41,488 bases of DNA from the IMG/VR virus record IMGVR_UViG_3300017917_000714, positions 1 through 41,488 of that record; one strand, written 5' to 3'. Below the pieces are notes generated by a model. That model ran no database searches, was not told the origin of the DNA, and saw only the letters and a program-made list of their open reading frames with translations. How positions within the stretch are numbered: position 1 is the stretch's first letter; the number at the start of each line of letters is the position of its first letter. This document shows, piece after piece, positions 13,353 to 37,417 of the stretch. Source of the DNA: a virus. The position numbers and the translations under genes are program-made.

Positions 13353-13354
13353 TT

Positions 13355-14728: not shown

Positions 14729-14739
14729 CTTTTTTATCT

Positions 14740-14747: not shown

Positions 14748-14752
14748 TCAAA

Positions 14753-16309: not shown

Positions 16310-16506
16310 ATTTTTTTTCTATCTTCAATTTCTTCCATTATTTTATTATGGAACTCTTCAATTATGTCTATGTGTTTGGTTAGATCAATAATTAATGCTT
16401 TAGTTTTTTCAAATTCACTGAATAAAAATTCTTCAGCATCAAATAAGTCTTTATTTGATTTGTTTTTAACATCGTTCAATATCGATTCAAGTTTTTCCTT
16501 TTCCAT
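16306..16506 (-). CDS. Small coiled-coil protein
   Basis: 66 residues, almost entirely charged helix (MEKEKLESILNDVKNKSNKD and LTKHIDIIEEFHNKIMEEIE) and a likely coiled coil. It lies between two probable virion genes: one base separates it from the gene upstream, and ATGA overlaps the baseplate-like gene downstream. This tight coupling supports a real gene, perhaps an assembly chaperone or minor structural part. No family recognised. Confidence 0.7.
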   Translation of the reverse strand: MEKEKLESILNDVKNKSNKDLFDAEEFLFSEFEKTKALIIDLTKHIDIIEEFHNKIMEEIEDRKKI

Positions 16507-16507
16507 A

Positions 16508-18813: not shown

Positions 18814-18816
18814 AAC

Positions 18817-18824
18817 AATAAATA
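18817..18824 (-). promoter_or_regulatory. Late-promoter-like motif (minus strand)
   Basis: TATTTATT on the minus strand (context TTGTATTTATTGTT), three bases before the ATG at 18813. It marks a possible boundary between the sigma-factor gene and the virion genes downstream of it. Confidence 0.45.
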
Positions 18825-18833
18825 CAAAAATTA

Positions 18834-19532: not shown

Positions 19533-19534
19533 TC

Positions 19535-20314: not shown

Positions 20315-21378
20315 TCTGTTATCTCCTCTTTTAATTTTTCTAACGCGTTTTGAATTGCTTCAACTCTTTTATTTTTAAATGAACCAAAAATACTAATAAT
20401 GTTGTTTTTGGTAATTTCTGTATCATATGGTAACAACGTTTCTTTCATTTTTTGTTTAACGTCATCATTTAATTCAGAACCGTCTAACCAAGCCATTACA
20501 AAAGTTCCAAGAATTTCAACGATTTTGTTTTCATCATATGTCCACATACCATTTTCACTTAACCAATCAGGTTCGTTTCTCGGTATTTTACCAATAACTG
20601 GTACACCACATTTTATTGATTCAAGTGGAAAAGTACCAAAGGTTGAGTCATCATCAACCCAAACAGAAACCATTGATGTTTTAAGAAAATCGGCAAATTC
20701 TGAATAACTTAAACCAACCATGTCTCTAAATGTTATCCATCTTAAAAATGGGTATTTAATATAAAACTCTGAAATTATTTTTTTGGTTTTAGACCTGTCT
20801 TTAGTCATAATTGAAATCACTGGTAGTTTTTGTTTTTCAGATGGTGTAAACTCTTCCCCAATAATAGGTGGAATTATGTGAACTAAACTTTCCGAATACA
20901 AATCATTGATGTATTTTTTAGAATTTTCGGTTGTTGTAATAACCCTATCAAATCCAAAGTCAGACCATCTACTACCAATTGGTAAAGTTTCAAAAATATA
21001 TTCTTTTTGTTGTACCAACATAACTTTAACACAACGGATATTTGCTAAACTTTCCAAAACATTAGAGTAATATTCAGGAACAACAACAATATCTTCGATT
21101 TTTATTTCGACTCTATCGTCCTTAATTGTAACAACATCCAGTGAATCATATTTCTCACCTAACCATTTTGAAACTCCAGTATATGTTTTATCCTCGACTA
21201 AAATTTTTGAATTGTAGCCCGATTCTTTTAATGTTAATGCCATATCATAGATATGTTTAACAGACGCACGTGGATTATTTCTCGTGTCGTACACTAAAAA
21301 ATAGATAACATTTTGATTGTCCTCTAAATTTTTTAGTGATGTTTCTAATTTTTCAATGTTTTCTTTATTATTCATCAT
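20311..21378 (-). CDS. Glycosyltransferase, GT-B fold (GT4-like)
   Basis: 355 residues. The first half has the Rossmann-like start YFLVYDTRNN and HIYDMALTLKESGYNSKILV. The second half carries the donor-binding segment WVDDDSTFGTFPLESIKCGV followed by PVIGKIPRN (about 240-270), where the F-P-L-E-S-I-K-C-G-V-P pattern corresponds to the E-x7-E region of retaining GT-B enzymes. I keep the first of two adjacent ATG codons; the second, three bases on, is equally possible. It overlaps the upstream gene by 11 bases and the GT2-like gene by ATGA. Donor and acceptor are unknown. Confidence 0.8.
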   Translation of the reverse strand: MMNNKENIEKLETSLKNLEDNQNVIYFLVYDTRNNPRASVKHIYDMALTLKESGYNSKILVEDKTYTGVSKWLGEKYDSLDVVTIKDDRVEIKIEDIVVVPEYYSNVLESLANIRCVKVMLVQQKEYIFETLPIGSRWSDFGFDRVITTTENSKKYINDLYSESLVHIIPPIIGEEFTPSEKQKLPVISIMTKDRSKTKKIISEFYIKYPFLRWITFRDMVGLSYSEFADFLKTSMVSVWVDDDSTFGTFPLESIKCGVPVIGKIPRNEPDWLSENGMWTYDENKIVEILGTFVMAWLDGSELNDDVKQKMKETLLPYDTEITKNNIISIFGSFKNKRVEAIQNALEKLKEEITE

Positions 21379-21652
21379 CTTCTTCTATTAGTACTCCGTA
21401 TTTTATTAATGTGTTAAATGCAATTTTAAATGATACACTCAAACTGTTTCCTGCAATTGGTCCCAATTCTTCATCGGTTTCATTAAATTCACCTAAAACA
21501 CGCTCAAGACAAAGTTTGATAACTTCATATTTGAAAAGGTTTATTTCTAACGATACACTATCATCTTCATTTTTGATAGTGCCGCCTGTTTGACATTTTT
21601 CAGTAATTGTTTCAATGTCGATGTAATAGTTTTTTCCGAATAACTCAACCAT
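21368..21652 (-). CDS. Small acidic phage protein of unknown function
   Basis: 94 residues, acidic, with a mixed beta then alpha pattern: MVELFGKNYYIDIETITEKC, then SVSLEINLFKYEVIKLCLER. No catalytic motif. The N-terminal 35 codons overlap the end of the HAD-like gene in another frame over 106 bases, and its last bases overlap the next gene. The composition of the overlap and the clean amphipathic helix downstream suggest a real gene rather than a chance frame. Function unknown. Confidence 0.68.
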   Translation of the reverse strand: MVELFGKNYYIDIETITEKCQTGGTIKNEDDSVSLEINLFKYEVIKLCLERVLGEFNETDEELGPIAGNSLSVSFKIAFNTLIKYGVLIEEDDE

Positions 21653-22227
21653 TCTTTTTGAATTTCATTTAATTTATTTATTTCTATTTTATTTGTAAAG
21701 TGATTATTGTAATATGTGTTAAATTTAATAACAGATTTATTTTTTGGACACATGGAAATGACTGTTTCATCATCAGTAATCCATAAGTCACAATTAGACC
21801 ATAGATTATTTATCTCATCATAATTTGAGAATTTTACATTGTCACAAAGAATGCCATTTTTTGAAAGGAAAAATAAAGAGGCTGGTTTTGATTTACCCTT
21901 TTCTGATAAACCAACAATTGTAAATGTTACGTCAGGATTATCAAATAACATGGTATTAAAATCAGTTGCAGCATGACTATAACTCAAACCAGCATGACCA
22001 AATATTTCTATTGGAAAATCAAAGTATAAAAACTTCTTGTATTCTTCTTCGGATTGAAAATTATAGGTGTTTAAGATACCTTTAATAGATGAAGGATTAT
22101 CTTTTAAACCATATTCAAAAGTTTCTTCACTTTCGGTTTCCGTGTTTAAAAAATAATCCTTATAATGATAATCAAATTTTTGAAGGGTGTTTCTTAATAC
22201 ACCATCAATACTTACATATACTTCCAT
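21547..22227 (-). CDS. Degenerate HAD-like protein
   Basis: 226 residues from the ATG at 22227 (MEVYVSIDGVLRNTLQKF). A longer frame uses GTG at 22251. VYVSIDGVLRN matches HAD motif I (DxDGVLR) except that the first aspartate, the phosphorylated nucleophile, is serine (S6, codon AGT). Around 135-170, NNLWSNCDLWITDDETVISM resembles the later strand of HAD phosphatases with an acidic pair. The family usually removes phosphate from nucleotides or sugars. Without the nucleophile this copy is probably inactive as a phosphatase or has a changed role. Its last 106 bases overlap the following gene in another frame. Confidence 0.6.
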   Translation of the reverse strand: MEVYVSIDGVLRNTLQKFDYHYKDYFLNTETESEETFEYGLKDNPSSIKGILNTYNFQSEEEYKKFLYFDFPIEIFGHAGLSYSHAATDFNTMLFDNPDVTFTIVGLSEKGKSKPASLFFLSKNGILCDNVKFSNYDEINNLWSNCDLWITDDETVISMCPKNKSVIKFNTYYNNHFTNKIEINKLNEIQKEWLSYSEKTITSTLKQLLKNVKQAALSKMKMIVYR

Positions 22228-22264
22228 AACAGAAATATAATAATAAAACACTTATGTGTAAATA

Positions 22265-22993
22265 CTAATCGTATCTTTTCAATATTTCAGTAATAAGTGG
22301 GTTTCTAACAATATCTTTATCGTTAAATTCAAATACACCAATATTTCTCATTTCACCCAATCTTATTTTTGCATCGTACAAACCTGTTTTGGTTTTATCT
22401 TTATATTTGTCCGATTGTTCCAAATCTCCCGAGATAAAAAACTTTGAGTTGAATCCTATCCTTGTTAATAATAATTTCATTTGAGATGGTGTTGCGTTTT
22501 GAGCCTCTTCAAAAACTAAAATTGTATTATCAACGTTCCATCCCCTCATATATGCCAATGCGGCAATTTCAATAAATCCTTCTTCTGCCAATTTTTCTCT
22601 CGCATCTTTTCCAATTATTTTATTTAATAGGTAATACGATGGATAGATATATGGGTCTAATTTTTCTTCAAGACCACCCGGTAACGATCCCAACTTTTCC
22701 TCCGCTTCAACTGCGGGTCTAACTATGATTATTTTTTCATATTTGTTTTCGTCACTCCAAAGTAAATCAATGGCTCTTTTCATTGCGATGTATGATTTAC
22801 CTACACCCGCAGGTCCAAAACATAATGTTATTTCATTGTCACCCAAAATATTCCAATACTCTTCTTGATTCTTTGTAAGGAATTTTTCTTTTGGTTGTTT
22901 TATTAGCTGTCTAATTCTTTCTTTTTTGTTTTGTTTTCTTTCCTCGAAAACATGTGAATTAGTTTTTCCTGATTTGGTTGTTGTTTTTTTCAA
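22265..22993 (-). CDS. phoH: PhoH-like ATPase with TTG start
   Basis: 242 residues, a RecA/helicase-type P-loop ATPase common in T4-like phages. Walker A GPAGVGKS (60-67), Walker B TILVFEEAQN (157-166), the FISGDLEQSD motif (about 192-201) and the closing FNDKDIVRNPLITEILKRY are all family hallmarks. A Lys-rich N-terminal tail (1-40) precedes the domain. The frame contains no ATG before the Walker A region and a stop lies eight codons upstream, so the start must be TTG at 22993. The biochemical role of phage PhoH is unsettled; RNA or nucleotide metabolism under host stress is the usual suggestion. It is transcribed after the dUTPase gene with a 41-base gap. Confidence 0.93.
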   Translation of the reverse strand: MKKTTTKSGKTNSHVFEERKQNKKERIRQLIKQPKEKFLTKNQEEYWNILGDNEITLCFGPAGVGKSYIAMKRAIDLLWSDENKYEKIIIVRPAVEAEEKLGSLPGGLEEKLDPYIYPSYYLLNKIIGKDAREKLAEEGFIEIAALAYMRGWNVDNTILVFEEAQNATPSQMKLLLTRIGFNSKFFISGDLEQSDKYKDKTKTGLYDAKIRLGEMRNIGVFEFNDKDIVRNPLITEILKRYD

Positions 22994-23034
22994 GTCTGTT
23001 TTGTTTAAATATAATTATTATGGTTCAGTTAAAA

Positions 23035-23640
23035 TTACGAACCGGTACTACCAAATCCACCTTCACCTCTTTCAGTTGAGGTAAGATCATCAACTTCAAC
23101 AAATTTAATACTTGGGTATGGTACGATGATAATTTGTGCAATCCTATCACCAACTTTATAGTCTGTTTGATCTATTCTAATATCATTGGGTCCGAAAACT
23201 TTTTTAAATGTTGCCTGTATTTCGCCCCTATAACCACTATCAATAACACCAACAGAATTAGTTAAACTCAAATCTGTTTTTCTTATTGAAGAACGTGGAA
23301 ACACTAATCCAACGTAACCTTTTGGGATTTCCATTGCAATACCCGTACCATAAGTCACATCAAAGCTTGTATTTTCAATTATTTTAGTTGCCACTAAATC
23401 CATACCAGCATCACCATCTTTCGCATACGATGGAATAACAGCATTAGGTGATAGTTTTTTAATCTTAACCTCCATTTGGTTAGTGTTGTAAATCACATTA
23501 TTTTCAACATCTTTTCCGAGTTTGTTTAACATTTCGTTAAGTTCGGTAATGTAATTAGTGTCTTTTGATTCACCAGTTGATAATATTTTTTCAAACTCTA
23601 AAAGTTTGTTTAAGTATTTTTCAATATCACTTTTTTCCAT
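23035..23640 (-). CDS. dut: dUTPase with helical N-terminal extension
   Basis: 201 residues. The enzyme hydrolyses dUTP to dUMP, keeping uracil out of DNA and feeding dTMP synthesis. All five motifs are present: DAGMDLVA (77-84), PRSSIR (115-120), GVIDSGYRGEI (131-141), GDRIAQIII (164-172) and RGEGGFGSTG (191-200). The dUTPase domain proper begins at about M56 (MEVKIKKLSPNAVIPSYAKD). Residues 1-55 are a charged helical extension not found in ordinary trimeric dUTPases. An internal start at M56 would give a normal-size enzyme, but the long version overlaps the upstream gene by only 14 bases, typical of this operon. Confidence 0.93.
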   Translation of the reverse strand: MEKSDIEKYLNKLLEFEKILSTGESKDTNYITELNEMLNKLGKDVENNVIYNTNQMEVKIKKLSPNAVIPSYAKDGDAGMDLVATKIIENTSFDVTYGTGIAMEIPKGYVGLVFPRSSIRKTDLSLTNSVGVIDSGYRGEIQATFKKVFGPNDIRIDQTDYKVGDRIAQIIIVPYPSIKFVEVDDLTSTERGEGGFGSTGS

Positions 23641-24193
23641 TTTTTTCTTCTAATATAGATAATTCAAAACCCATTTTTATTACGTGTGTTAAATTTTCTG
23701 AATAATACTTTGCTTGTTTATCATCAGAGTCTTTATCTGTATTTAAAATTGCTTGGTATTCTTCTTCTGTTAAAGAAACTCCGTATTTGGTTGCATAATA
23801 TACAGACCTTTCACCAACTTTTAATGATACCAATTCCTCATTAAACTCATACATTTTACCTTGGTTTTTAATTTGCCAATCATTTTTGTTTGGTTTAAAA
23901 AGAAATACCTTTCCTATTTGTGATATGAAAATACATTTAAGTATTGATACCGGATTTAATTTAACATTATCAGGTAACAAATCATTTATCTTAATGGAGT
24001 ACTTAGCAGCTTTTAAACAGTTATTAAGTAAACCACCGGGATAAGATCCGTACATATCCAACATAGTAGTTGCTGGTGATGTGTAAAAATCCTCACCCAA
24101 GAAATCTTCCAATTCTTGAGTGAGAATACTATATTTTTTATTAGTTTCTTTGAACTTTTTTTTATTCTGTTCAAGTTGTTCTATCGTTAACAT
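23627..24193 (-). CDS. HD-domain-like protein without metal ligands
   Basis: 188 residues. The helical plan follows HD-superfamily phosphohydrolases: YGSYPGGLLNNCLKAAKYSI (48-67) corresponds to the GGLLxHSLxVAxYA helix, ILKCIFISQIGKVFLF (84-99) to LxLLHDIGK, and VGERSVYYATKYGVSLTEEE to the next helix pair. The canonical histidines and HD pair are replaced: N57/N58 in the first helix and S91-Q92 where H-D should be. Metal-dependent hydrolysis is therefore unlikely, suggesting a structural, binding or inhibitory role. It overlaps the dUTPase start by 14 bases. The fold assignment is by pattern only. Confidence 0.55.
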   Translation of the reverse strand: MLTIEQLEQNKKKFKETNKKYSILTQELEDFLGEDFYTSPATTMLDMYGSYPGGLLNNCLKAAKYSIKINDLLPDNVKLNPVSILKCIFISQIGKVFLFKPNKNDWQIKNQGKMYEFNEELVSLKVGERSVYYATKYGVSLTEEEYQAILNTDKDSDDKQAKYYSENLTHVIKMGFELSILEEKNGKK

Positions 24194-24196
24194 AAA

Positions 24197-24430
24197 TTAT
24201 CCTTTAAAATATTCAGGTGTGTTTTTTTGATCGATGATACATTCAATTGGCATTTTAACAATTGCCAAGCTTTCGCTTGATCTCATGTCACCTTGACGAT
24301 ATTTTGAAACAACTAATGTCGCTTCCTCAACCGATTCGGCTTCAACGATGTATTTAACTTTTTGTAATCTTGGGTTTCCGTTGCGGTCAAGTTGCTCCAA
24401 CTCGTATCCGACTGTTACTAAATAATGCAT
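24197..24430 (-). CDS. Small protein resembling Bacteroidota DUF4494-type proteins
   Basis: 77 residues: beta strand MHYLVTVGYELEQ, a second strand QKVKYIVEAESVEEA followed by a helix, then ESLAIVKMPIECII. This strand-strand-helix-strand layout, with 'V-E-A-E-S-V-E-E-A' before the helix, is like the small DUF4494 proteins of Bacteroidota and their phages. The match is by layout only. No catalytic residues. It is three bases from the HD-like gene and 12 from the glycosyltransferase gene. Confidence 0.65.
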   Translation of the reverse strand: MHYLVTVGYELEQLDRNGNPRLQKVKYIVEAESVEEATLVVSKYRQGDMRSSESLAIVKMPIECIIDQKNTPEYFKG

Positions 24431-24442
24431 AAATTTTTGTTT

Positions 24443-25660
24443 TTAAATTATTGTTTTGAAAAATTGTGTTCTATCTTTTGATACGTTTACTAATGAATAT
24501 TTGTCTTTTACTGTTTCATATAATCTATTTCCTAAATCTTCAACCATATTAGGGTTCTCAACTAGTCTTTTCATGTGTTGAAACCATTGTTTGTGATTTT
24601 TCTTTGGTGATACTAATAAACAATTACCATTGTCATTAAATTTACCATCACTATACGCACTAACCAAATCTATTGTGTAAGGGTCAACATCACTAGCAAT
24701 TAAAGCTTTTTTATGGAAACCCGACTCGATAGCCTTTAGTTGTGATTTGTTTTTATTAAAATCACTTTCTAACAATGGTGCCAAAGATATGTCAAATAAA
24801 TTATAATTAAAACCATATTTAGAAATTGGTTGTGTCCAAACTCTATTATATTTTTTATTTGACGCATCAACCCTTAAATCGGTAAACGTCATTAAGTATT
24901 TTTTGTATTCCTCATCAATACTTTTATAATCATTTGTGAATATTTTTTCATATTGATACCATACTGTTTCTTTTGGTTCTATTTGTCTAGTTGTTTTTTC
25001 ACCTGTTTGTGGGTTGATAAGTGTTACAGTTCCTCTCAAATCAAAACCACAAAGAACAAATTGAGTGTTTTCATAGTCTTGGGTTATCATTGATATTGAA
25101 TCTTTCAATAATTCAATATCATGTAAATGTGTAGAACCACCTAACCATCCAAATCTAATTCTATCTGTTTTGGTTGGATTTGATTGAAATTGAGGTTCAT
25201 TGGGATCAATCGCATTTGGAAATACAATAACATTTTTAATACCAATTTTAGTTTTAATAGTATTTGCGAAAATATCTGTTGTACATGTAACATAATCCAC
25301 CATCTTCATTAACTCAACTTTTTTACGAGGTAATTCTGCGGATTTTATATGATGATACATTGGGTGTCTATGATCGACATTCCAATAATCATCAATATCC
25401 ATAACAACTTTTATTCCTTGTGATTTTAAGAAATTAATCCTATCGATATTTTCTTGGTGACCGTTTTGATGTATAAATGAATGAAAAACAACAATGTCGT
25501 AATTTTTGAAAAAGTCGTCATTCATTTCAACATTTAAAGCAATGTCGACATGGAACTCGTCTGAGTGGTTATCTCCTATATATTTAAAAGGATCTAGAAT
25601 ACGGTACTTACCCACACCATGAGTGTCCGGAGGTATTGCTAAAATTTTAATTTTTGACAT
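24443..25660 (-). CDS. Glycosyltransferase, GT-B fold
   Basis: 405 residues from the ATG at 25660; a TTG directly before it also lies in frame. The N-terminal half carries KILAIPPDTHGVGKYRILDP and KVVMDIDDYWNVDHRHPMYH, then TCTTDIFANTI and VIVFPNAIDP, a typical GT4-type linker. The C-terminal half has RFGWLGGSTHLHDIELL (about 168-184) and the donor-binding region around FDISLAPLLESDFNKNKSQL followed by KAIESG (about 300-325), where the acidic residue and K-A-I-E-S-G match GT-B enzymes acting on nucleotide sugars. Donor and acceptor cannot be read. It is the third glycosyltransferase of this block. Confidence 0.85.
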   Translation of the reverse strand: MSKIKILAIPPDTHGVGKYRILDPFKYIGDNHSDEFHVDIALNVEMNDDFFKNYDIVVFHSFIHQNGHQENIDRINFLKSQGIKVVMDIDDYWNVDHRHPMYHHIKSAELPRKKVELMKMVDYVTCTTDIFANTIKTKIGIKNVIVFPNAIDPNEPQFQSNPTKTDRIRFGWLGGSTHLHDIELLKDSISMITQDYENTQFVLCGFDLRGTVTLINPQTGEKTTRQIEPKETVWYQYEKIFTNDYKSIDEEYKKYLMTFTDLRVDASNKKYNRVWTQPISKYGFNYNLFDISLAPLLESDFNKNKSQLKAIESGFHKKALIASDVDPYTIDLVSAYSDGKFNDNGNCLLVSPKKNHKQWFQHMKRLVENPNMVEDLGNRLYETVKDKYSLVNVSKDRTQFFKTII

Positions 25661-25711
25661 CAATTTAACTTGTATGTCTAAATTATAGTAAAAAAAAATG
25701 AAAAATCAAAC

Positions 25712-26284
25712 TTATTTTGATTTATTTACACCTGTAATCTTACCTTTGAACACAGAATCACCAACTTTAAGAACTAAATTTTCATTAATTGATAGTGTTT
25801 GTTGGGCTGTTAAGATTTGATTTAACTTTGCATCTAAAATTTCGGTAACGGTTTTTCTAACGATATTTTCAATTATTGGTTTTAATTGATTAATATCCAC
25901 ATTTGAGGATGATTGTGTTGTTTTTGGTTTTGATTTGGTGGAAACACCCTCAGCTTCCATTAATTTTTTTGTTTTTTGAACAAAATTCAAATCTAACGAA
26001 TCTGTTAAACTTATTTGTGGTATTGGATTCTCAATCATAGCTTTTTTTATCGCTTCTGGTAATTTAGATTCCATAATTTTATTAACATTTACGTTTGGTT
26101 GTGTGTTTGTTGGTGTTTCTATTGCATTTGGAATAACGTCTTCCGGGTTAGACCTAATAATGTCTTCATTAACGTGACCTCTTTCAAAATCACCAGTTTC
26201 AACTTTATTCATCACTTTTTTGGCCATAACCAATTTTTGCATTAGTGAGTTTTCTGATATTACACCTCTTCCTGTATTTTCCAT
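25712..26284 (-). CDS. Unknown protein with Asn/Pro/Thr-rich linker and helical C-terminus
   Basis: 190 residues, not recognised. The N-terminal 30 residues are a helix (NSLMQKLVMAKKVMNKVETG). A long disordered-looking middle follows (about 45-135: NAIETPTNTQPNVNVNKIME), then a helix (QLKPIIENIVRKTVTEILDA) and a final small beta segment VLKVGDSVFKGKITGV. It begins the run of probable virion or assembly genes upstream of the glycosyltransferase. AAGGA lies nine bases before the region adjoining the start, a weak Shine-Dalgarno-like element that is unusual for this window. Confidence 0.7.
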   Translation of the reverse strand: MENTGRGVISENSLMQKLVMAKKVMNKVETGDFERGHVNEDIIRSNPEDVIPNAIETPTNTQPNVNVNKIMESKLPEAIKKAMIENPIPQISLTDSLDLNFVQKTKKLMEAEGVSTKSKPKTTQSSSNVDINQLKPIIENIVRKTVTEILDAKLNQILTAQQTLSINENLVLKVGDSVFKGKITGVNKSK

Positions 26285-26311
26285 AATATTTTTTCCTTAT
26301 AATAACTATTT

Positions 26312-27130
26312 TTAAAAGAAAATTAAAGTCTTAATTCTGTTTATAGATTCCTGTAATGGCTGTTCTGTACCAACCTCTACGTTATTTTGTTTTAATAAGT
26401 TATATAACTCATATTCAGCTTCTTTCTCTATTCTTCTTCTTGTGCCTTCACCTGGCGTCGTATTTGCACCAATTTCTTGTTGGTAGTTTTTCCAATCTTC
26501 AGTTTTCTTTTTATACAAATCATCAATAGATTTTTTAACCTCTTCTGGTGAAATTTGTTTTTTGTTATTGATAACCGATATTTTATTCTTTAAAACATCA
26601 TAAACCTCCAAATCACGTCTAATTTCTTTTTGTGGTGTTGGTTGTGGTTTTTCTTTTGGTTTTATTTCCGGTACCTTTTCTTTTGGTTTTTCAACTGGTT
26701 TTGGTAATTCTGTTTTAGGTTTAAGATCAGGGGTGTCTGTCCACTTAGTTTTAGCGTAAATGGTTGTTAAACTATTATCACCATTTTCGTTATAGTTGGG
26801 TCTCTTTGTGTTAAAAGTTTCCTCATTATATATTTGAACACCCGACATGTTTTTAACTTTAAAAAGTCTCCATCCATGTTTACCAAAACCTTTTTTGGAA
26901 ACCGATGGTGGTTGAACCCACCCCCTAACAACTAAATTACCTTTTTTTGTCAATCCCATGGCAACCAGCTCTGCCTTTATCCTTCTACCGGGCAAAACCT
27001 CACCTTTTGGTCCATTATAATAAAATGAAACAGGATTACGATTTTGTATCGCATCAATCAACATCTTATTTCTTGATGATGTTGGGGATTGTTCCAATAT
27101 TATTTGTAATATATTTTCTAAATTACCCAT
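26312..27130 (-). CDS. WYL-like domain protein with Pro/Lys-rich linker
   Basis: 272 residues. Residues about 24-106 follow the WYL pattern: LIDAIQNRNPVSFYYNGPKG, then GRRIKAELVAMGLTKKGN with VVRGWVQ where WYL proteins have the W-Y-L strand, and GWRLFKVKNMSGVQI as the R-x-F-x-V/L-x-R-I strand. WYL domains bind ligands or nucleic acid in bacterial regulators and defence proteins; here there is no attached helix-turn-helix. A Pro/Lys/Glu-rich linker (about 132-170) leads to a helical C-terminal domain with a final amphipathic helix. The stop codon of its upstream neighbour overlaps its ATG by one base. A role in the virion or in sensing is open. Confidence 0.62.
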   Translation of the reverse strand: MGNLENILQIILEQSPTSSRNKMLIDAIQNRNPVSFYYNGPKGEVLPGRRIKAELVAMGLTKKGNLVVRGWVQPPSVSKKGFGKHGWRLFKVKNMSGVQIYNEETFNTKRPNYNENGDNSLTTIYAKTKWTDTPDLKPKTELPKPVEKPKEKVPEIKPKEKPQPTPQKEIRRDLEVYDVLKNKISVINNKKQISPEEVKKSIDDLYKKKTEDWKNYQQEIGANTTPGEGTRRRIEKEAEYELYNLLKQNNVEVGTEQPLQESINRIKTLIFF

Positions 27131-27798
27131 TAAAAATCAGGATATTGTTTTGTTTCTCCGTATTTATTTTTTGCTTTTAAAACGATTCTCTCGTTAATAT
27201 CTGTTTTTGTCCCAACACTACCTCCAGGGTTTTCACCTCTACCTTTATCGTCTCCGTCAGATATTGCATTAGGATTAACTGAAGAGTACTCAAACCCATT
27301 GTTGTAAGTATTTTTTGCCAATAATGTGATTCTTTCGTTAATGTCTGTTTTTGTTCCGACAGCACCACCGGGATTCTGTCCTCTACCCTTTTCATCTCCG
27401 TCAGATAATGCGTTAGGATTAACTGAAGAATACTCAAACCCATTATTGTAAGTATTTTTTGCTAATAGTGTTTTTCTTTCATTAATGTCGGTTAGTGACC
27501 CAACCGAACCACTACTAGATTCTCCTTTACCCTTTTCGTCTCCGTCAGATATTGCATTTGGGTTAACAACACCATAACCAAAGTTATTGTTGTATATGTT
27601 TTTAGCTAATAACGATTTTCTTTCATTAATATCCGTTAATGAACCAATACTGTTATTTTGTTCTCCTTTACCTTTTTCATCCCCATCAGACAATGCGTTT
27701 GGGTTTGATGAGTTGTAAAGATCCCCGTAGTTATATTCATTTTTTGCCATTAATGTGTTTCTTTCACCATTGGCAATAATCTCTAATTGGGTTGGCAT
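27130..27798 (-). CDS. Protein built of tandem 47-48-residue repeats
   Basis: 222 residues. After ten leading residues, four complete units of 47-48 residues and one partial unit follow. Each has the form (N/G)ER-x-x-L-x-AKN-x-Y near the start, NPNA(I/L)SDGD(E/D)KG(R/K)G in the middle and (V/I)G-(S/T)-x-TDI at the end. Units 3 and 4 are nearly identical. No cysteines, membrane segments or catalytic motifs. Regular repeats with an SDGDEKGRGE loop may bind metal ions or pack as an elongated rod, and the position beside other probable virion genes suggests a structural protein. No family recognised. Confidence 0.78.
   Translation of the reverse strand: MPTQLEIIANGERNTLMAKNEYNYGDLYNSSNPNALSDGDEKGKGEQNNSIGSLTDINERKSLLAKNIYNNNFGYGVVNPNAISDGDEKGKGESSSGSVGSLTDINERKTLLAKNTYNNGFEYSSVNPNALSDGDEKGRGQNPGGAVGTKTDINERITLLAKNTYNNGFEYSSVNPNAISDGDDKGRGENPGGSVGTKTDINERIVLKAKNKYGETKQYPDF
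27196..27768 (-). repeat. Four tandem 141-144-bp coding repeats
   Basis: Four direct units (141, 144, 144, 144 bp) within the gene at 27130-27798, matching protein residues 11-201. The two units furthest from the start are the most similar, as expected for a recent duplication. Confidence 0.85.
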
Positions 27799-27799
27799 A

Positions 27800-28297
27800 T
27801 TATTTACTAATTAAATTTTTTATTTTTTCAATTTCTTCAAACAACTTTAACGATGTTATTGGTGAAATTGACGTTTTATGTGAATTACTTTTTACTAAAT
27901 TAGTTGGAATTTTAAAACTAAATTTTTTTGTGTGTTTTTTTAAATGTGAATTTTTTCTTTCACCTGTAATAGACGATATTTCGTCAGCCCTTTTCCTTGA
28001 ATCTTTTTTATTACTGATTAAGTCTCTTTCACCCTTTAAAAATTGTTGCGACCATCTTTCCATTAATTCACCACCATACAAATCATATTTTGTTCTTTCA
28101 TTGGTTTTATCCAAGTTTTGTATGTCATGGATTATTCTTTTTAATTGTCCGTAATTTACCGTTTTATCGTTTAAAAGTTTTTTAGCTCTTTGTATTCCTC
28201 GCACATTTTTTCCATTTAAACCAGTAATTGTATGGTTTATTTTATCTAAAATGTCTTGTGGAACATTAAAAACTTTACCTTTTAAATCTTTATTCAT
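27800..28297 (-). CDS. Basic helical protein of unknown function
   Basis: 165 residues, Lys-rich. Residues 1-75 are helical (VPQDILDKINHTITGLNGKN, then RIIHDIQNLDK), followed by YDLYGGELMERWSQQFLKGE, a segment with conserved-looking aromatic and Gly residues. The centre is very basic (RKNSHLKKHTKKFSFK) and the end is a short amphipathic helix. A nucleic-acid-binding or virion role is possible from charge alone. It overlaps its upstream neighbour by eight bases and ends one base before the repeat-protein gene's ATG. Confidence 0.72.
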   Translation of the reverse strand: MNKDLKGKVFNVPQDILDKINHTITGLNGKNVRGIQRAKKLLNDKTVNYGQLKRIIHDIQNLDKTNERTKYDLYGGELMERWSQQFLKGERDLISNKKDSRKRADEISSITGERKNSHLKKHTKKFSFKIPTNLVKSNSHKTSISPITSLKLFEEIEKIKNLISK

Positions 28298-29051
28298 TTC
28301 CTTTTTTCTTTAATAATTTAACAATTTGGTCCATTGGAATGTCGTTTTTTTCCATTGTTTGTTTTAATGCATCAACCTGTCTTTTAATAATTGGGTTTAA
28401 TTCTTTTTCAACATCTTCGGTTTGATCTTTTTTAACCAAATCACCAACAGATGATTTTTTACTCATAACCGTTTCAACATAGTCTTGTATATATTTTTTA
28501 GGATTTTCAATTAACCTTACTTTATCACCCGGTAATTTTGGGTCATAACCATATGTTTTTAATCTTTCTTCACTTTCAGGCTCGTCCATACCAAGTTCAT
28601 CTTGGAAATATTCTTCAGCATCTTCCATATCTTTGTCTTTTCCTAAGGTTTTTTCATAACCTAACGCTTTACTCATATCCGCTTCCGCCCAATATTTTAA
28701 AGTAGATGAATGATTACCAAGACCAATTACCCCATGAGTACCCATTTGACCCATAGATGTTGCAACCACTTGATCCGTGGTTTTTTTAGTTGCGCCTTTA
28801 TAATCTTTTGTTTGTGGTATTTTTTTTCTTCCAATATTACCATTGTCGTCCACAATTTCACTCACATCAGACTCAACCTTTTCTGGTATTTTTTTATAGT
28901 CGGTGTCCGAAGAAAACTCATCAGCCATTTTACTCCATTTTTTTCTTTCCTTCTTTGGTATCGACTTATCCCCCGCCTTTGCATAGAAAAATCTTTGTTG
29001 TGCTTTTGACTTAAAAGTCTCCTCAATAATATTTTTTATGAAATTATCCAT
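28290..29051 (-). CDS. First gene of the minus-strand late block; unknown function
   Basis: 253 residues. The N-terminus (MDNFIKNIIEETFKSKAQQR, then FFYAKA followed by KKERKKWSKMADEFS) resembles the SKAQQRFF...KW-x-KMAxEF pattern seen at the start of assorted uncharacterised phage proteins. The middle contains TSMGQMGTHGVIGLGNHSST and an acidic segment (DMEDAEEYFQDELGMDEPES), and the C-terminus is helical. No catalytic motif recognised. Its ATG at 29051 faces the divergent late promoter, so it should be the promoter-proximal gene of the long minus-strand run. Confidence 0.7.
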   Translation of the reverse strand: MDNFIKNIIEETFKSKAQQRFFYAKAGDKSIPKKERKKWSKMADEFSSDTDYKKIPEKVESDVSEIVDDNGNIGRKKIPQTKDYKGATKKTTDQVVATSMGQMGTHGVIGLGNHSSTLKYWAEADMSKALGYEKTLGKDKDMEDAEEYFQDELGMDEPESEERLKTYGYDPKLPGDKVRLIENPKKYIQDYVETVMSKKSSVGDLVKKDQTEDVEKELNPIIKRQVDALKQTMEKNDIPMDQIVKLLKKKGNE

Positions 29052-29061
29052 ACATTTAGTT

Positions 29062-29104
29062 TTTTATATAAATATCAAAAGAAACGAAAGATATTTATAT
29101 AAAA
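29062..29104. promoter_or_regulatory. Divergent late promoter: perfect 15-bp inverted repeat
   Basis: GATATTTATATAAAA occurs on the plus strand at 29090-29104 and as its exact reverse complement at 29062-29076, separated by 13 bases (AAAAGAAACGAAA). Each arm points outward to a gene start: the plus arm ends one base before the ATG at 29106, the minus arm 10 bases before the ATG at 29051. This is the best evidence for the orientation of the TATTTATA element. It should drive the fibre genes one way and the long structural block the other. Confidence 0.72.
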
Positions 29105-29105
29105 C

Positions 29106-31121
29106 ATGAATAGTCAAAACATATTAAAATTTTGGGGTAGTAAATTAGATTTAAAACTCGATTCATCAGAATATCACGATTACGAAGTTTACAAAACTGA
29201 TCTTGATTATGATGATGCGATTTTAGATTTGGACACCCCCATTGTATATCCAACGTTAAAAATAAATACAACGGGGCTAACAGATGCTAGTTGTGTTAGA
29301 AACACAATTTCATTAGTTGAATTTGATAACACAATAAATGATTCTGGATATACGTATTCAGCATTTACTTGGACATTACCTTATAGTGGGTTTACGAATC
29401 AATTATCAAATTCAGACATTATTTTACAAAATGATGTTTATCAGTACTTAGATGGGAACAATAATACACATTTATTAATAATTGACGCATTTAATGAATC
29501 CTTATCTAATCCGTATAATTTAGAACTTAGTGGTTTAACAAATTATACGGGATTTACAATTTATACCGGATTTACAGAAATGTCAGGTGTTACGGGGACA
29601 TCTTTTTCATGTGTTCAAGAACTATTCAACATAGCAACTGGTAACACTATTTGTTGTCCACAAGACCCAATTTCAAACGCAAAACCATGGGCTTATCAAA
29701 TAGACCATGGGGATGGTGATGATTTTTGTTTGGAAAAAATAAGAAGAAGAACAGAAAAAGGTTGGACCTTGGATTTTATTTTTAATAAGGAAAACTTACC
29801 ATGGTCCGAAGGTAATGTATTTTACTATTGGGGTGTTAGAGGCGAAAACGACATAAAAAAATATGCAGACAATAATTTATCTTTTTCTTTTACAAATGAT
29901 GGTAAAATACGCTGGCAATCGGTAAGATATTCAGGAGTTTGCTCAACAGATAGTGGATATACTGAATCATACTACACGTCATCAGGTGAAACGCCCACCC
30001 TATGTTCATCAGGAACATCACAAGATTTTAATATAACAATAACCTTTGATAGATACAAACATTATGAGTTTTGTGGTATAGAAAATGATGGTGGTTGGAA
30101 TGACCTGATAACAGGAAGAACATTAACAATTCCTGTTAGTGCTTGGTTAACAGGTGCAACACCAACTTATGAAGATGTTGAGGTATTAAACAAAGGTTGG
30201 GCGGAAGAAAGACAAAGAAGATTAGGTGTACTTACAATTTATTTGAATGGTAGACCTATTTATAAATTAAAAGACTGGGAAGAGGTTATACCATCAACAA
30301 GAGGTTATCAACCATTAATACAATCTTGGGGTTCTGGAACTGAATTTTCAGGTGGAATCCACAACTTAGGTACATCGTGTTTTAATTTCAAAAGAATAAA
30401 ATACTTTGAAGAACCATTAAATTTTGTTAGAGTTAGACATCACTATTTGGTTAACACTACACCATTCTTCAATATTGTTGAATGTAATGGTCCATGCCCT
30501 GATAATGTTATTGGTATGACAACACCATTCCCACCACCTACACCAACACCTACACCATTACCAGATTATTTTGCATATTTATTTATAGAACCAGCATCAG
30601 GTGTGACATCTTTGGCAACATACATGGTAAGTCAGGGTCACACATGGGGTGGCTTTAATTTGAGTTCTCCAAGTCTGTCCCAAGTAACATTTAATAATCA
30701 ATTAAATAGTTACATAAATTATAATGGTTGGACTTCTGGTTTATTACCTGCGGTTAGAACTCAAATAATACCACAAACTAGTGGTGGTTTAGATTCTTTT
30801 GGTAACGCAATTACCGCATTTAATTTCACTACACATGAAATACCCGCAAACACTATAAATGACACCGCTTGGTTTACTTGGATTATACCAGATGCTGGTA
30901 TAAATGGTCAAAAACAAACTGAGATTGGTTTCAATTACTCAAATAGTCCAAATAGTTTAACAAATGCCATGATGAACTCAACGATTTATAGCATGACACT
31001 AAATTATACGGGTACAAGAATACCATCAGGTACTTACAGGGTTTATACAACAAAACCAAGTACGATATTCAGAACAAACAATTTTAATAATATTTATTTT
31101 AAAGGTACACAAATAACATAA
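29106..31121 (+). CDS. Probable tail-fibre or adhesin protein with lectin-like domain
   Basis: 671 residues. Residues 1-200 are beta-rich and Thr/Asn-rich. About 215-440 ([15 protein letters not shown], then [20 protein letters not shown] and [20 protein letters not shown]) resembles a concanavalin/LamG-like beta-sandwich, a fold often used to bind sugars. A Pro-Thr linker ([11 protein letters not shown], about 474-486) leads to a separate C-terminal domain of about 185 residues. Several cysteines (SCVRN, CCPQDP, CNGPCP) are notable in a cytoplasmically made protein. First gene after the divergent late promoter. Its stop overlaps the next ATG by one base. Receptor binding is inference. Confidence 0.72.
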
Positions 31122-34100
31122 TGAGTTTTAATTATAAAAATCCAATATCACCTGTCACAGTATCAGGACCAACATCTGTCCCATTAAATTCAAATATTGG
31201 AACGGACTTTAATATATTATCAATTGGTGGTTATCAAGAAGTATATAGTTTAAACGACTTACTTTTTAATATACCTTCAGGAACAACGGGTGATGTTTTA
31301 TATAGTGGTAATACCATACCCGTACAATTATCAATTAGTCCCGTAGTTGGTTTACCTAACACATTAGTGTTAAATAGTGATGGAATATCTTCAGGAAGAA
31401 GAAGATTAGGTATGATGGTTTCTGTTGTAACCGAACAAAAAAATTATATTTTTCAAATTTCAGGTTACACACAATTATTTAATGATGCATTAAATGCAGG
31501 ATCAATAGTTGAAACAGAATTTGGTTTTGAAGTAAATAACACGACAACAGAAGGTCAGGTATTAATTGATGCTTGGACTGGTTCAACGATTGATGGGATT
31601 AGTGGTTACACAAGCGACAATTCAAATTGGAAAGTTTTTTCATCATCTTCATGGCAATTAACAGGTGGTACATATTTTTCAGGAACAACAACATTAGAAT
31701 TATATGATAATACTGGTGGTACAATTACTATTACAGGGTTTACGTCACCGACTGGTGAATCTGGATTGTCAGGTATAAGTGGATCATCGGGAATATCTGG
31801 ATTATCGGGCGTTTCTGGTATTGGTGGATTGTCAGGAACTTCTGGTACTTCGGGTTTATCAGGTATAAATGGTGAATCAGGTATAAGTGGTTTATCTGGA
31901 TTAAGTGGTACTAGTGGTGTATCAGGTTTTTCAGGTTTAAGTGGCTTATTAGGAACATCTGGTATTAGTGGTATAAGTGGTTTATCAGGAATAAGTGGAG
32001 TGAGTGGTTTATTAGGAACCTCGGGTATTTCAGGATTGTCGGGACGTTCAGGTATTTCAGGAATAAGCGGTACAGTAGGTTCGCAAGGTATTTCGGGCAC
32101 AAGTGGATTAGTTGGTCAAGATGGAATTGCAGGTGTTGATGGTGAATCAGGTATAAGTGGTCGTTCAGGTATTTCAGGAATAAGTGGTGCAGTAGGTTTG
32201 CAAGGTATCTCAGGTTTGCAAGGTATCTCAGGTTTGCAAGGTATCTCAGGTTTGTTAGGAACCAGTGGTTTGTCTGGATCAAGTGGTACTTCGGGATTAT
32301 CTGGTACAAGTGGTACTTCTGGTATATCGGGTCAATCGGGTGCTTCAGGTATGACTGGTAACTCGGGAATTTCAGGTTTGTCAGGAACATTTGGTATAAG
32401 TGGAATATCGGGACAATCAGGTACTTCTGGAGTCAGTGGTATATCTGGACTTTCAGGTGTTAGCGGTTTATTAGGAACTTCTGGTACTTCGGGTTTATCA
32501 GGTATAAATGGTGAATCAGGTATAAGTGGTTTATCTGGATTAAGTGGTACTAGTGGTGTATCAGGACAATCCGGTACATCGGGTATCTCTGGTTTATTAG
32601 GAACATCCGGTATTAGTGGTATAAGTGGAACTTTTGGTATTTCAGGTTTATCAGGAACGTCTGGTATTAGTGGATTATCTGGAACTTCAGGAATAAGTGG
32701 GTTGAGTGGGGTAAGTGGTATCTCAGGATTGATGGGTATTTCTGGATTATCAGGGACCAGTGGTCTTTCGGGTACAAGTGGAGTATCGGGTATTTCTGGA
32801 ACTGGTGGATTATCAGGTATTAGTGGTGTGTCTGGGCTTTCGGGATTATCGGGGACATCAGGGTTAAGTGGTACATCAGGTTTAAGTGGTTTATCAGGAA
32901 TAAGTGGCATTTCTGGTATCAGTGGTTTATCAGGTACTTCAGGTATAAGTGGGTTGTTGGGAGCTAGTGGATTATCAGGTATTAGTGGTTTATCAGGAAC
33001 ATCTGGTGTCAGTGGATTATCAGGTATTTCGGGAAAAAATGGTATTTCGGTTGGACAAACATATTATTTTAACGAGTCAATAACTCAAACACCTTTAACA
33101 TATAAACAACTTTCAACAACACCTACATCAAATCCCCAACAAACAGTAACCAAAACATTAGCTGGTAACTCAACTAATAATTTAATTTCGGAATACATAA
33201 CAGATGAGTTAGGATTTGCAGTAATCCCTGGTGGAGTGCAAAGATTTCATTTACATTTTCTTAAACCAGCATCAAATGACGGTATAGAATTTTATTGTCA
33301 AATAGATTTAGCAGATTTTAGTGGTACATCGTATAATACTTTAACTGCAAATACAAATACCGCACTAATTGGTTGGGTTGATGCTGTTACACCTGTAGAG
33401 GCACTTGTTGATTTGGTTTTACCGACAATAACTATAAACCCATCTGACAGAATGATTGTTAGAATCTACACTAATAATATTGATTCAACAACACATGTAT
33501 TAAATTATTACACCGAAGGGACCACATATTACTCTTTTATTGTTACATCGGTAGGTGTTATAGGTAATTCTGGTTTAAGTGGTATTTCAGGTTTATCAGG
33601 AATCAGTGGAACATCTGGAATAAGTGGTTTATCAGGAACATCTGGTGTCAGTGGATTATCAGGTATTAGTGGAACCTCAGGTATTTCTGGATTAAGTGGA
33701 GCTTCGGGAATAAGTGGTGTATCTGGACTTTCAGGGTTATCAGGACTTTCGGGATTATCTGGAACATCAGGGTTAAGTGGCACTTCAGGAATCTCAGGTT
33801 TATCAGGTACTTCAGGAATCTCAGGTTTATCAGGTACTTCAGGAATCTCAGGTACAAGTGGATTAAGTGGTGCAAGTGGTATATCAGGTCAAAATCTAAC
33901 GGTTAGTGGTACAACAAATTATATCCCTAAATTTACAAGTAATAATACTTTAGGTAATACCGTTGTTCCAATTTATGAGAACGGATCGGGGGTCAGTATT
34001 GGTTCAACAGGAGCAACACCATCATCAATATTAGACTTAGTTTCTACAGATAAAGGTTTCTTAGTTCCTCGCATGACCGAATCAGAAAGATTATCTATTG

Positions 34101-34192
34101 TTTCACCCGCAACAGGATTGTTAGTGTATCAAACAGATAATGATGAAGGTTATTATATACATAAATCATTTGGTTGGGTTCAAATAATATAA
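31121..34192 (+). CDS. Collagen-like (Gly-X-Ser) fibre protein with internal globular domain
   Basis: 1023 residues. The N-terminal 210 residues are globular and end with the module [18 protein letters not shown] Gly-X-Ser tract runs about 211-643 (X mostly Leu, Ile, Thr or Val), then a non-repeat domain of about 170 residues (643-813: [20 protein letters not shown] and [15 protein letters not shown]), a second tract (814-924), and a C-terminal domain with [20 protein letters not shown] and [14 protein letters not shown], a tip module frequent in proteins of Bacteroidota and their phages. Glycine at every third position suggests a collagen-like trimeric stalk, although proline is absent from the tracts. 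Probably a long tail or head fibre. Confidence 0.85.
31754..33050 (+). repeat. Gly-X-Ser coding repeat tract (first fibre gene)
   Basis: About 430 codons with Gly at every third position and Ser in most third positions. The units are 9-bp multiples such as GGTTTATCAGGAATAAGT. A short run of near-identical units encodes [18 protein letters not shown] at about 32190-32260. A few charged residues occur (GRSG, GQDG, GVDGESG). Confidence 0.9.
33562..33893 (+). repeat. Second Gly-X-Ser tract of the first fibre gene
   Basis: About 110 codons with the same period, following the globular insert and preceding the C-terminal tip module. Confidence 0.88.
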
Positions 34193-34193
34193 T

Positions 34194-34820
34194 ATGTCAT
34201 TATTTGTTAAAAATACAACAATTATAAATTCTAGACTAATTGTTGGTTCGACATCTTTTGTTGTTCCGACTCAAACACCAACGCCATCAATAACCCCAAC
34301 GTTAACTCAAACACCAACACCATCAATAACCCCAACGTTAACTCAAACACCAACACCATCAATAACCCCAACAATAACACCATCCGCAGGTACTGGTGTT
34401 ACTTTTTCACGAACATTTACAGGTAGTACTGCACCTGGTGCTACAATAGAAAACGCTTGGACTACTTTCAGAAGTCAATTAACAGGAACATACACAACAA
34501 TGACAATGTCAAATTCTTTAGGTACTTCGTTAACAGTTAGTGATGCAAATGTTCAAAGTATTGCAAATGCATTAAGAACGGGAACAACAGGAACGAATTT
34601 CTCAGTTATAATTGGTAGTAGAACATGGAGAGTACTTCATGGTTGTGTTCAGGGTACTGCTGACACGAATTCTATTTATTTAACAAGTAGTGGTGGATGT
34701 GATTGTGGGGGTACTGGTACTTATACAATAAGACCTATGATAAAGAATTTAAATTGGGGTGGATTGAACACGTCTTCTTGTGGTCAACCCACACAAACAA
34801 TAACTTTAACATTTTCATAA
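34194..34820 (+). CDS. Small fibre-associated protein with Thr-Pro-rich stalk
   Basis: 208 residues. A short N-terminus (MSLFVKNTTIINSRLIVGST) is followed by three copies of TQTPTPSITPTL-type repeats (about 26-64), an extended linker or spacer. The C-terminal domain (about 68-208) is beta-rich with four cysteines, including CDCGG at about 171-175 and C155 (VLHGCVQG). The linker plus domain arrangement repeats that of the C-terminal part of the gene at 29106, so both may carry exchangeable tip domains. Starts one base after the preceding stop. Binding target unknown. Confidence 0.75.
   Translation: MSLFVKNTTIINSRLIVGSTSFVVPTQTPTPSITPTLTQTPTPSITPTLTQTPTPSITPTITPSAGTGVTFSRTFTGSTAPGATIENAWTTFRSQLTGTYTTMTMSNSLGTSLTVSDANVQSIANALRTGTTGTNFSVIIGSRTWRVLHGCVQGTADTNSIYLTSSGGCDCGGTGTYTIRPMIKNLNWGGLNTSSCGQPTQTITLTFS
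34269..34376 (+). repeat. Three tandem 36-bp repeats encoding Thr-Pro units
   Basis: Three direct copies of a 36-bp unit beginning ACTCAAACACCAAC and ending CCCCAACGTTA (34269-34304, 34305-34340, 34341-34376). They differ only by a few bases, unlike the scrambled Gly-X-Ser tracts. Confidence 0.92.
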
Positions 34821-34822
34821 TT

Positions 34823-34957
34823 ATGTATTATATTATTAATTTAACAACAAATCCACCAACCGAAATACCTAATTTGGTTTTTGAAATTGAAAATGATGCT
34901 TCTAATTGGGTCAATCAAAATGGTGATGCTACGGAATACACAATAATAAAAAAGTAA
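34823..34957 (+). CDS. Very small protein in fibre gene cluster
   Basis: 44 residues (MYYIINLTTNPPTEIPNLVF..., ending TEYTIIKK). The ATG at 34823 is two bases after the preceding stop; a longer frame from 34703 lies inside the previous gene. The sequence forms two likely strands joined by an acidic, Asn-rich helix. Position and spacing support a real gene, but no family is recognised. About 90 bases of A/T-rich non-coding sequence follow. Confidence 0.5.
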   Translation: MYYIINLTTNPPTEIPNLVFEIENDASNWVNQNGDATEYTIIKK

Positions 34958-35015
34958 TTTTATTTTTATTGTTACTAAAGTTATTATTTTAGAAATAAAA
35001 ACACGGACCAAGTCA

Positions 35016-35025
35016 TATTTATATA
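35016..35025 (+). promoter_or_regulatory. Late-promoter-like motif before the second collagen-like gene
   Basis: CATATTTATATAAAA matches the divergent-promoter arm in 14 of 15 bases. It lies 22 bases before the ATG at 35048, in the only gap of the fibre cluster, and starts a second fibre transcription unit. Confidence 0.62.
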
Positions 35026-35047
35026 AAATAGTAAACAATTTTATGTA

Positions 35048-37414
35048 ATGGCAATAACAAACGGTACAAACTATAATAATAACAAAGGTTTTATTGTATC
35101 AACAGATGAAAAAAACAGATTAATTGTTTCAACTGGCGGTACTACAACAATAACAGGTGACACAAGCGGGTCTACTGTGTTTGAAGTTGTTGGTACAAAT
35201 GGTCAATTACTTCAAGTTATTGATGATAATAATGGACTATTATTTGCGGTTAACAATAGTTCTGGAGACACTATGTTCTCAATTTACGATTCCAATAGTT
35301 CAAATACAGTAGTAATTCAAAACAACCAATTAATAGTTTCAGGTAATACCAATCCGGTAAAATTTATTGGTATACAAACAGGAGGAACTAGTAATTTATA
35401 CTTAACTATCGATAATGATGGTATTATAAGATCTTCACCAGAAGGACCAGAGGGAACCTCTGGTTTATCGGGAACTTCTGGTTTATCAGGATTAAGTGGA
35501 ACATCTGGCATATCTGGTATAAGTGGAATATCAGGACAATCTGGTACTTCAGGAATAAGTGGATTATCAGGATTGTCTGGTTTATCAGGTACCTCAGGAC
35601 TTTCGGGTACTAGTGGTACTTCAGGCATTAGTGGATTAAGTGGAACATCTGGTTTATCGGGAACTTCTGGTACATCAGGATTAAGTGGAACTTCGGGAAT
35701 TAGTGGTCAATCTGGAATCTCTGGTTTATCAGGAACATCTGGTGTTTCTGGAACAAGTGGAGTTTCAGGTATTAGCGGTATCTCAGGATTAAGTGGTCAA
35801 TCTGGTATAAGTGGATTGAGTGGAATATCGGGACAATCTGGAATCTCTGGCTTATCAGGAACATCTGGTGTTTCTGGAACAAGCGGTACGTCTGGTGTAA
35901 GCGGATTAAGTGGGACATCAGGATTGTCTGGCACAAGTGGAATCAGCGGTCTTTCAGGTATAATCGGAACATCTGGTATTTCAGGATTATCTGGACAATC
36001 CGGTACAAGTGGAATTTCTGGTTCATCAGGACAATCGGGTATCTCAGGATTGAGTGGGGATTCAGGAACGTCTGGTATAAGTGGTCAATATGGTATTTCT
36101 GGAACATCTGGATTAAATGGTGTTTCTGGATTATCTGGGTTAAGTGGTATTTTAGGAACATCTGGTATCTCAGGACTTTCAGGGTTAAGTGGAACCTCAG
36201 GAATTTCTGGTACTTCAGGTATTAGTGGTATGCTCGGTATAAGTGGAACCTCAGGAATTAGTGGTGAGTCAGGTTTAAGTGGTATATATAGTGAAATTAC
36301 TGGTGGTACATACTTTAGTGGGTCGTCTACATTGGAATTGTATGACAATAATGGTAACACTGTGTCTGTTTCTGGGTTTTCATCAAATGTTCAAGTTTCA
36401 GGTAATACTGGTTTAGGAACAAATAATAATATACTTTTTACAACATACAACACTCTTTTGGATTCATCTTTATCAATGGCAAGTACTGTTGGTGGTTTAA
36501 CTGCCGGTACAACAGTATCACAAATTAGCGGTAAAACATTTGTATCATTATTTGATGACTTGTTATTCCCAACACAAAACCCAACATATACAATACCAAC
36601 AATTACGTTGTCGGGTGTTGCAAATTCAACAGTTGAGGTTGGTTCAACATTATCACTATCATTATCATCCATAGGTGTTAAAAATGATGCTGGTAATTTC
36701 ACACAAATAAGATTGTTTAGAAATGGTTCAGTAATTTCAACGTACACTGGTTTAACATCATCATCACAAGCAAATGTTTCAAACCAATTTGGGTACACAA
36801 ACCCAAATAGTCCAAACTCAGGATTTACAATAAACCCAACACCATATTCTGAAAGTTATGTGATTACGTCACCTACAGGTGTTACTCAAACAACATCAAC
36901 AACATATTATGCTGATAGTAACTATGGTGCTGGTTTACCAAAAAACAATAACAAGGGTGTTCTTGATGTTAGATCTGCACAAGTGAGAAGTGTAAACGCA
37001 CCACAAGCTTCTGGTACATCTTTCCAATCATCAACTTTTACGTATACAGGTATATATCCATATTATTATGGTTTATCCTCAAGTGAACCAACATTAGAAA
37101 CTGTGAAGGCTGCCATATCGGGTGGTACGGCATCAAAAGTTTTAGCAAGTGCGTCAGGTAATTTAACTATAACATATAATGCAAGTACACAATTTTTATG
37201 GTTTGCACACTTTGGTAATTACACAATAAAATCTCAATGGTATGTTGCGGCAGATAATAAAGGTTCAATGTCATCAACAAGTTTGTTTGATTCTGGAACA
37301 TTGGCACAAGTTTCAAGTGCAACGGGTTTGTGGAATAACGTTAATTTCTATATTTATTTAGGTAACTACGCAACAACATTAACATCAATAACAGTAGGTA
37401 ACAGTTTATTTTAA
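35048..37414 (+). CDS. Collagen-like (Gly-X-Ser) fibre protein with C-terminal beta domains
   Basis: 788 residues. The N-terminal domain (1-132) includes a strand-rich segment ([20 protein letters not shown]) common at the start of fibre-like proteins. A Gly-X-Ser tract (about 133-414) follows. Then comes [20 protein letters not shown], the same module that in the first collagen-like protein lies before the repeats. The C-terminal 370 residues are beta-rich with Ig-like and adhesin-like segments ([40 protein letters not shown]). They probably form a tip that contacts the host or another fibre. Late-type motif upstream; the next fibre gene begins three bases after the stop. Confidence 0.82.
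35444..36289 (+). repeat. Gly-X-Ser coding repeat tract (second fibre gene)
   Basis: About 280 codons of strict Gly-every-third-residue repeats, with Ser in the third position and Leu, Ile, Thr, Val or Gln in the second. Confidence 0.9.
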
Positions 37415-37417
37415 GAC

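Follow-up and report, generated by a model that had tools for sequence, protein, structure and literature searches.

An inverted repeat at positions 29062–29104 of the window (the whole 41,488-nucleotide stretch of viral DNA analysed here, an IMG/VR virus record) is probably a back-to-back late promoter pair, belonging to a T4-superfamily phage that probably infects Bacteroidota and read by a gp55-like sigma factor. T4 late promoters have a TATAAATA box and work with gp55, together with gp33 and gp45. The box found here on the coding strand of the window and its relatives, TATTTATA, differs from that of T4 only in two swapped central bases, hence it is the exact reverse complement of the T4 box, and its orientation is the main finding of this study.

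The phage is a member of the T4 superfamily related to Flavobacterium phage immuto. Matches to phage families were obtained for its terminase, portal, head protease and major head protein; we take these families to be those of T4 gp17, gp20, gp21 and gp23 respectively. The closest head proteins among named phages include those of immuto, Rhodothermus phage RM378 and Microcystis phage Mel-JY01. The window has a GC content of 33% and Shine-Dalgarno sequences are generally absent from it; this absence, the kinship with immuto and a host-type promoter (Table 1) make a Bacteroidota host likely. Minus-strand genes occupy 11831–29051, a block of 17.2 kb, and the fibre genes on the plus strand take up the remaining 12.4 kb of the contig, 29106–41488, in agreement with the block sizes of roughly 17 and 12 kb claimed in an earlier, sequence-only reading. 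The product of the first minus-strand gene had no match in Pfam or PHROGs. Three fibre genes with very long collagen-like repeats lie within 31121–41488 on the plus strand, and the contig stops inside the last of these, probably at an assembly break. No known structured RNA was detected by an Rfam search of the window.

Table 1 Features of the window that bear on the inverted repeat, in order of position
Feature	Position	Strand	Details
Predicted single late box	1380–1387	+	3 nt before ATG 1391, terminase gene
Predicted single late box	3205–3212	+	3 nt before ATG 3216, portal gene
Predicted late box variant TATTTATT	6469–6475	+	Before head protease gene 6492; matrix score 16.6
Predicted late box variant TATTTATT	7230–7236	+	Before gene 7255; clade matrix
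Bacteroidota-type promoter candidate TTTG-N19-TATTTTTG	10286–10316	+	12 nt from box to ATG, gene 10321
Predicted late box inside minus block	13345–13352	-	3 nt before ATG 13341
Predicted late box inside minus block	14740–14747	-	Before gene 13355–14728; matrix score 17.9
gp55-like late sigma factor candidate	18834–19532	-	232 aa; in the block that the left arm would read
First gene of minus block	28290–29051	-	253 aa; relatives keep N-terminus MDNFI/MNNFIKxxIEE
Left arm GATATTTATATAAAA	29062–29076	-	Exact; box TATTTATA at 29074–29067; matrix score 18.7
Spacer AAAAGAAACGAAA	29077–29089		13 bp, pattern AAA-N7-AAA
Right arm GATATTTATATAAAA	29090–29104	+	Exact; box TATTTATA at 29092–29099; matrix score 14.8
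First gene of fibre block	29106–31121	+	671 aa; N-terminus conserved in relatives
Predicted late box inside fibre block	35016–35023	+	Before gene 35048; clade matrix

The sequence-only reading had described two exact, outward-facing copies of GATATTTATATAAAA, 13 bp apart between divergent genes, and its coordinates were exact. The start codons of the two divergent genes flank the repeat (ATG 29051 on the minus strand, ATG 29106 on the plus strand) and the gap from box to box is 17 bp. The window has no other perfect inverted repeat whose arms reach 13 bp with a loop of 3–40, and none of 60 dinucleotide-preserving shuffles gave one with 15-bp arms. A third copy of GATATTTATATAAAA, with one mismatch, lies at 35014–35028 on the plus strand; counted as a single 15-mer with up to two mismatches the sequence occurs three times against a shuffle mean of 1.1, a number reached in 10 of 100 shuffles. 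The count of single 15-mers is thus unremarkable, and it is the inverted repeat that is far beyond chance. The left arm is the top-scoring site of the whole window with the clade promoter matrix. Perfect symmetry over 15 bp is peculiar to this contig, relatives retaining a 10-bp core (TATAAATATC-N13-GATATTTATA). A search of 28800–29400 for an intrinsic terminator (G+C-rich stem followed by a T run) found none, and a terminator reading was rejected, with no such structure at the site and the element lying between divergent starts.

Motif enrichment was carried out on 1038 distinct upstream regions from approximately 90 related contigs and the window. The top-enriched 8-mers were overlapping versions of NTATTTATA. 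The coding strand carried TATTTATA, itself one of the top 8-mers, in 215 upstream regions, compared with 39 for its reverse complement, the coding-strand box of T4. The sites began between 11 and 40 nt upstream of the ATG, their distribution cut off sharply at 11. The boxes sit mostly before head and packaging genes, and the counts of TATTTATA against the reverse were nearly all one-sided across unrelated gene families, namely the portal (34:0), terminase (23:0), protease (39:1) and scaffold-position (36:0) genes, while many of the reverse matches came from divergent junctions and are the box of the partner gene. A base profile of 199 sites showed only A/T richness upstream, with no conserved -35 element, and an A-rich stretch downstream at positions 8–18. 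As a control, T4 was passed through the same pipeline and TATAAATA prevailed (11 vs 5). In the cultured phage immuto, TATTTATA was found before structural genes (15 vs 3 in 80–160 kb), including those for sheath, tube, tape measure, terminase and portal. No report of this box was found in the literature searched, which covered few subscription journals.

These single copies also bear on the direction in which the arms are read. The sequence-only reading held that the symmetry itself fixes the direction, but an inverted repeat can be read inward just as well, as TATAAATA. At the T4 4|53 junction, boxes in the order seen in the window (TATAAATA then TATTTATA) lie between divergent late genes, yet are read inward by the T4 consensus, hence the inverted repeat alone is ambiguous. 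Under a T4-type inward reading, the arms would be facing TATAAATA promoters with starts inside the spacer and transcripts crossing the opposite box; T4 supplies both the box (PMC2988020) and the precedent, and the resulting leaders, at approximately 25–35 nt, would resemble those of T4. Against this, the single boxes that precede portal, terminase, protease and scaffold genes in the clade are TATTTATA and almost never TATAAATA, and the same pipeline does yield TATAAATA for T4. We therefore reject the inward reading on single-copy orientation and consider it improbable. On sequence grounds, the outward direction is settled by the clade's single copies, and we regard the arms as most probably a pair of late promoters that face outward.

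Mel-JY01 possesses TATTTATA (6 vs 0) as well as a relative of the putative sigma factor described below, hence the box may extend beyond phages that infect Bacteroidota, unless the host on record is mistaken. RM378 has neither TATTTATA nor TATAAATA, its top coding-strand motifs being TTATTTAA and TATTTAAA; these are close to TATTTATA and are possibly a thermophile variant. A second promoter-like motif of immuto, TATATTTAGGTATCAATAATTAAAAC, lies mainly at 60–80 kb, concentrated before small genes, and is probably an early or middle promoter. Of the plus-strand copies of this second motif counted as TTTAGGTA, 18 of 26 lie within 60–80 kb, a concentration consistent with another temporal class in this phage.

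The paired arrangement is conserved. All 10 relatives identified through protein similarity alone, of which several are near-identical, keep TATAAATATC-N13-GATATTTAT. A pattern scan of viral contigs for TATAAATATC-N(2–32)-GATATTTATA returned at least 119 stretches, with a spacer of exactly 13 bp in 64 of 119 among the matches listed. When restricted to the 78 listed pairs with an open frame beginning within 60 nt on both sides, the spacer was 13 bp in 59, again among the matches listed. All 59 of these listed pairs form one linked group with the same divergent gene pair or its relatives, and among the matches listed the spacer of this gene pair is always 13 bp in dozens of relatives. As nearly all 13-bp pairs lie at one homologous junction, part of this constancy is due to shared descent. 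Within the spacer AAA-N7-AAA is kept and the seven bases in between are variable, as is the distance separating each box of the pair from its ATG. Boxes in the opposite, facing arrangement were rarer, detected in only 26 stretches by a complete scan, with spacers from 6 to 32 bp, none of them 13 bp. A possible second, smaller spacer preference, of 20 bp, was observed in several other divergent gene pairs among the matches listed; helical phasing was considered for these two recurring lengths and rejected, as their difference of 7 bp does not correspond to a helical turn. The AAA-N7-AAA pattern amounts to two short A-tracts on one strand, one helical turn apart, and the tracts are not symmetric as the arms are.

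Symmetric arms at a fixed spacing could also mark a palindromic operator for a dimeric regulator, or a cruciform, in place of promoters, and a single strand of the element does fold far better than shuffles (z -4.8). However, single arms precede many genes, the symmetry in relatives stops at the 10-bp core and the spacer pattern is asymmetric, hence we give this explanation little weight. We judge it similarly doubtful that the box is an mRNA element which aids translation start. The position of the box near start codons, with its sharp edge at -11, would fit such a role, as would the reliance of Bacteroidota, which lack Shine-Dalgarno sequences, on upstream sequence features (PMC6847099). The distance from box to box is nevertheless fixed across opposite strands while that from box to ATG varies, and the boxes of immuto lie preferentially in the half of its genome that holds the structural genes, with a different motif marking 60–80 kb. 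Chance repetition in AT-rich DNA, where at 33% GC short matches are common, has a negligible probability, being rejected by the shuffles, none of which yields such an inverted repeat, and contradicted by its conservation in dozens of contigs.

A candidate for the sigma factor that would read the back-to-back promoters is encoded within the minus-strand block. The gene was missed by library searches at default thresholds, and its single-sequence matches are weak (Pfam Sigma70_r2, E = 0.03; PHROGs late sigma, E = 0.025). When a profile built from 36 members of the family was compared with all PDB sequences, T4 gp55 ranked first (E = 0.0043, residues 17–140). An AlphaFold2 model of the candidate was of moderate quality (pLDDT 70.7), and the best Foldseek matches of this model in the PDB were sigma factors, none of them at E ≤ 0.001. 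Relative to T4 gp55, the clade-wide family has an extra C-terminal part. Members of the family were found in each of the seven large relatives searched, as well as in immuto (gp118). Among named phages, relatives of the protein occur in immuto, Mel-JY01 and LR756508, and in the last of these (24% identity) the box was not found in the 50 kb examined. The rule that every phage with a relative of the sigma factor has the box thus holds for immuto and Mel-JY01 and fails for LR756508 within those 50 kb. The annotated sigma factor of RM378 belongs to another PHROGs family. A search of nine records for the T4 clamp family (gp45) gave no match, but its controls gave none either. Taken with the enrichment of the box on the coding strand in the clade and in immuto, the gp55-like gene strengthens the original proposal of back-to-back late promoters, although we infer, rather than observe, the lateness, the start sites and the dependence on this sigma factor.

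In the mechanism we propose, the 8-bp box TATTTATA of each arm would occupy the -10 position, with no evident -35 element, and would be read by the host RNA polymerase carrying the phage gp55-like sigma factor. Transcription would begin a few bases outside each box and head outward, to the left into the 17-kb minus-strand block and to the right into the fibre block. The right start is predicted at approximately 29103–29105, leaving a leader of 1–3 nt before the AUG and hence a nearly leaderless mRNA, and the left start at approximately 29061–29063, with a leader of roughly 10–12 nt. One polymerase would cover both boxes. The predicted starts are only about 40–44 bp apart, under a single polymerase footprint, hence only one of the two promoters should be occupied at any moment. 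Elsewhere, a box at -11 leaves 3 nt to the AUG (terminase, portal and others), so that transcription would start at the AUG or nearly so. The predicted distance from box to start is slightly shorter than that of T4 and nearer that of Flavobacterium johnsoniae, where the box is reported at -12 to -5 (PMC6847099).

The pair is not, however, the sole late promoter of either block. It had been claimed that this one element controls both blocks together, which is overstated, as further boxes are predicted inside each of them, at 13352 and 14747 on the minus strand and at 31091 (by the clade matrix) and 35016 on the plus strand. The search for host-type promoters (TTTG, 17–23 bp, TANNTTTG) gave no match at the arms, which have no TTTG at -33, and one well-placed match elsewhere, at 10286–10316. 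A scan of 11–29 kb with the sigma-70 consensus produced 87 matches compared with 97 in shuffles.

The sigma gene lies 8.9–10.0 kb downstream of the arm facing it in all nine contigs checked that hold both (9.5 kb in the window), and a search of the minus strand from the left arm to this gene revealed no G+C-rich terminator-like site. That the left arm feeds back onto the sigma gene is no more than possible, because an AT-rich hairpin followed by a -10-like sequence, a candidate host-type promoter within the minus-strand block, intervenes at 25664–25720. The wider region (25664–25740, minus strand) consists of an AT-rich hairpin, a T run and TATAATTTAG before a glycosyltransferase gene, and is possibly a terminator followed by a middle promoter inside the block. 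A bolder proposal, speculative and on balance unlikely, is that a branch of T4-superfamily phages turned its late box into the reverse complement alongside a diverged gp55, with starts at or beside the AUG and several structural mRNAs leaderless, and that a single divergent promoter of fixed geometry and mutually exclusive use, its left arm reading into the sigma gene some 9–10 kb downstream, forms a self-reinforcing late switch.

Compared with known systems, the arms resemble bacterial bidirectional promoters in having predicted divergent starts closer than a polymerase footprint, with exclusive occupancy expected. Such promoters share a -10 element, however, and their starts are typically 10, 18 or 23 bp apart (PMC12825309), whereas here there are two separate boxes and predicted starts approximately 40–44 bp apart. 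The primary-sigma promoter of Bacteroidota (TTTG / TANNTTTG; PMC6847099) similarly has an AT-rich box near the start, and TATTTATA matches TANNTTTG at four of its six fixed positions, but the arms have no -33 TTTG partner.

The arms also resemble the late promoters of T4, in which the box spans -13 to -6 without a conserved -35 element (PMC2988020). As in T4, the clade has an 8-bp AT box with an A-rich segment downstream and no evident -35, placed before late structural genes of T4-superfamily phages that encode a gp55-like sigma factor. The differences are in the orientation of the box and in its placement, as clade boxes can be 3 nt from the ATG, compared with -22 to -36 in the T4 stretch tested. 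The T4 junctions 4|53 and 26|51 likewise have two opposite late boxes between divergent late genes, but these are 7 bp apart or overlapping (26|51) and, by the T4 consensus, face each other, whereas those of the window are 17 bp apart and point away. T4 late transcription is a textbook system whose promoter and sigma factor have been studied mainly in T4 and close relatives. Many environmental phages, forming a large clade, appear to employ the reverse complement of the T4 box together with a far-diverged but recognisable gp55. The two systems offer a natural comparison for asking how an octamer as close to symmetric as TAT-WW-ATA can orient a minimal sigma factor. The late genes of many uncultured phages become predictable from the box, and a conserved divergent promoter is available in which to test whether close back-to-back promoters balance two gene blocks.
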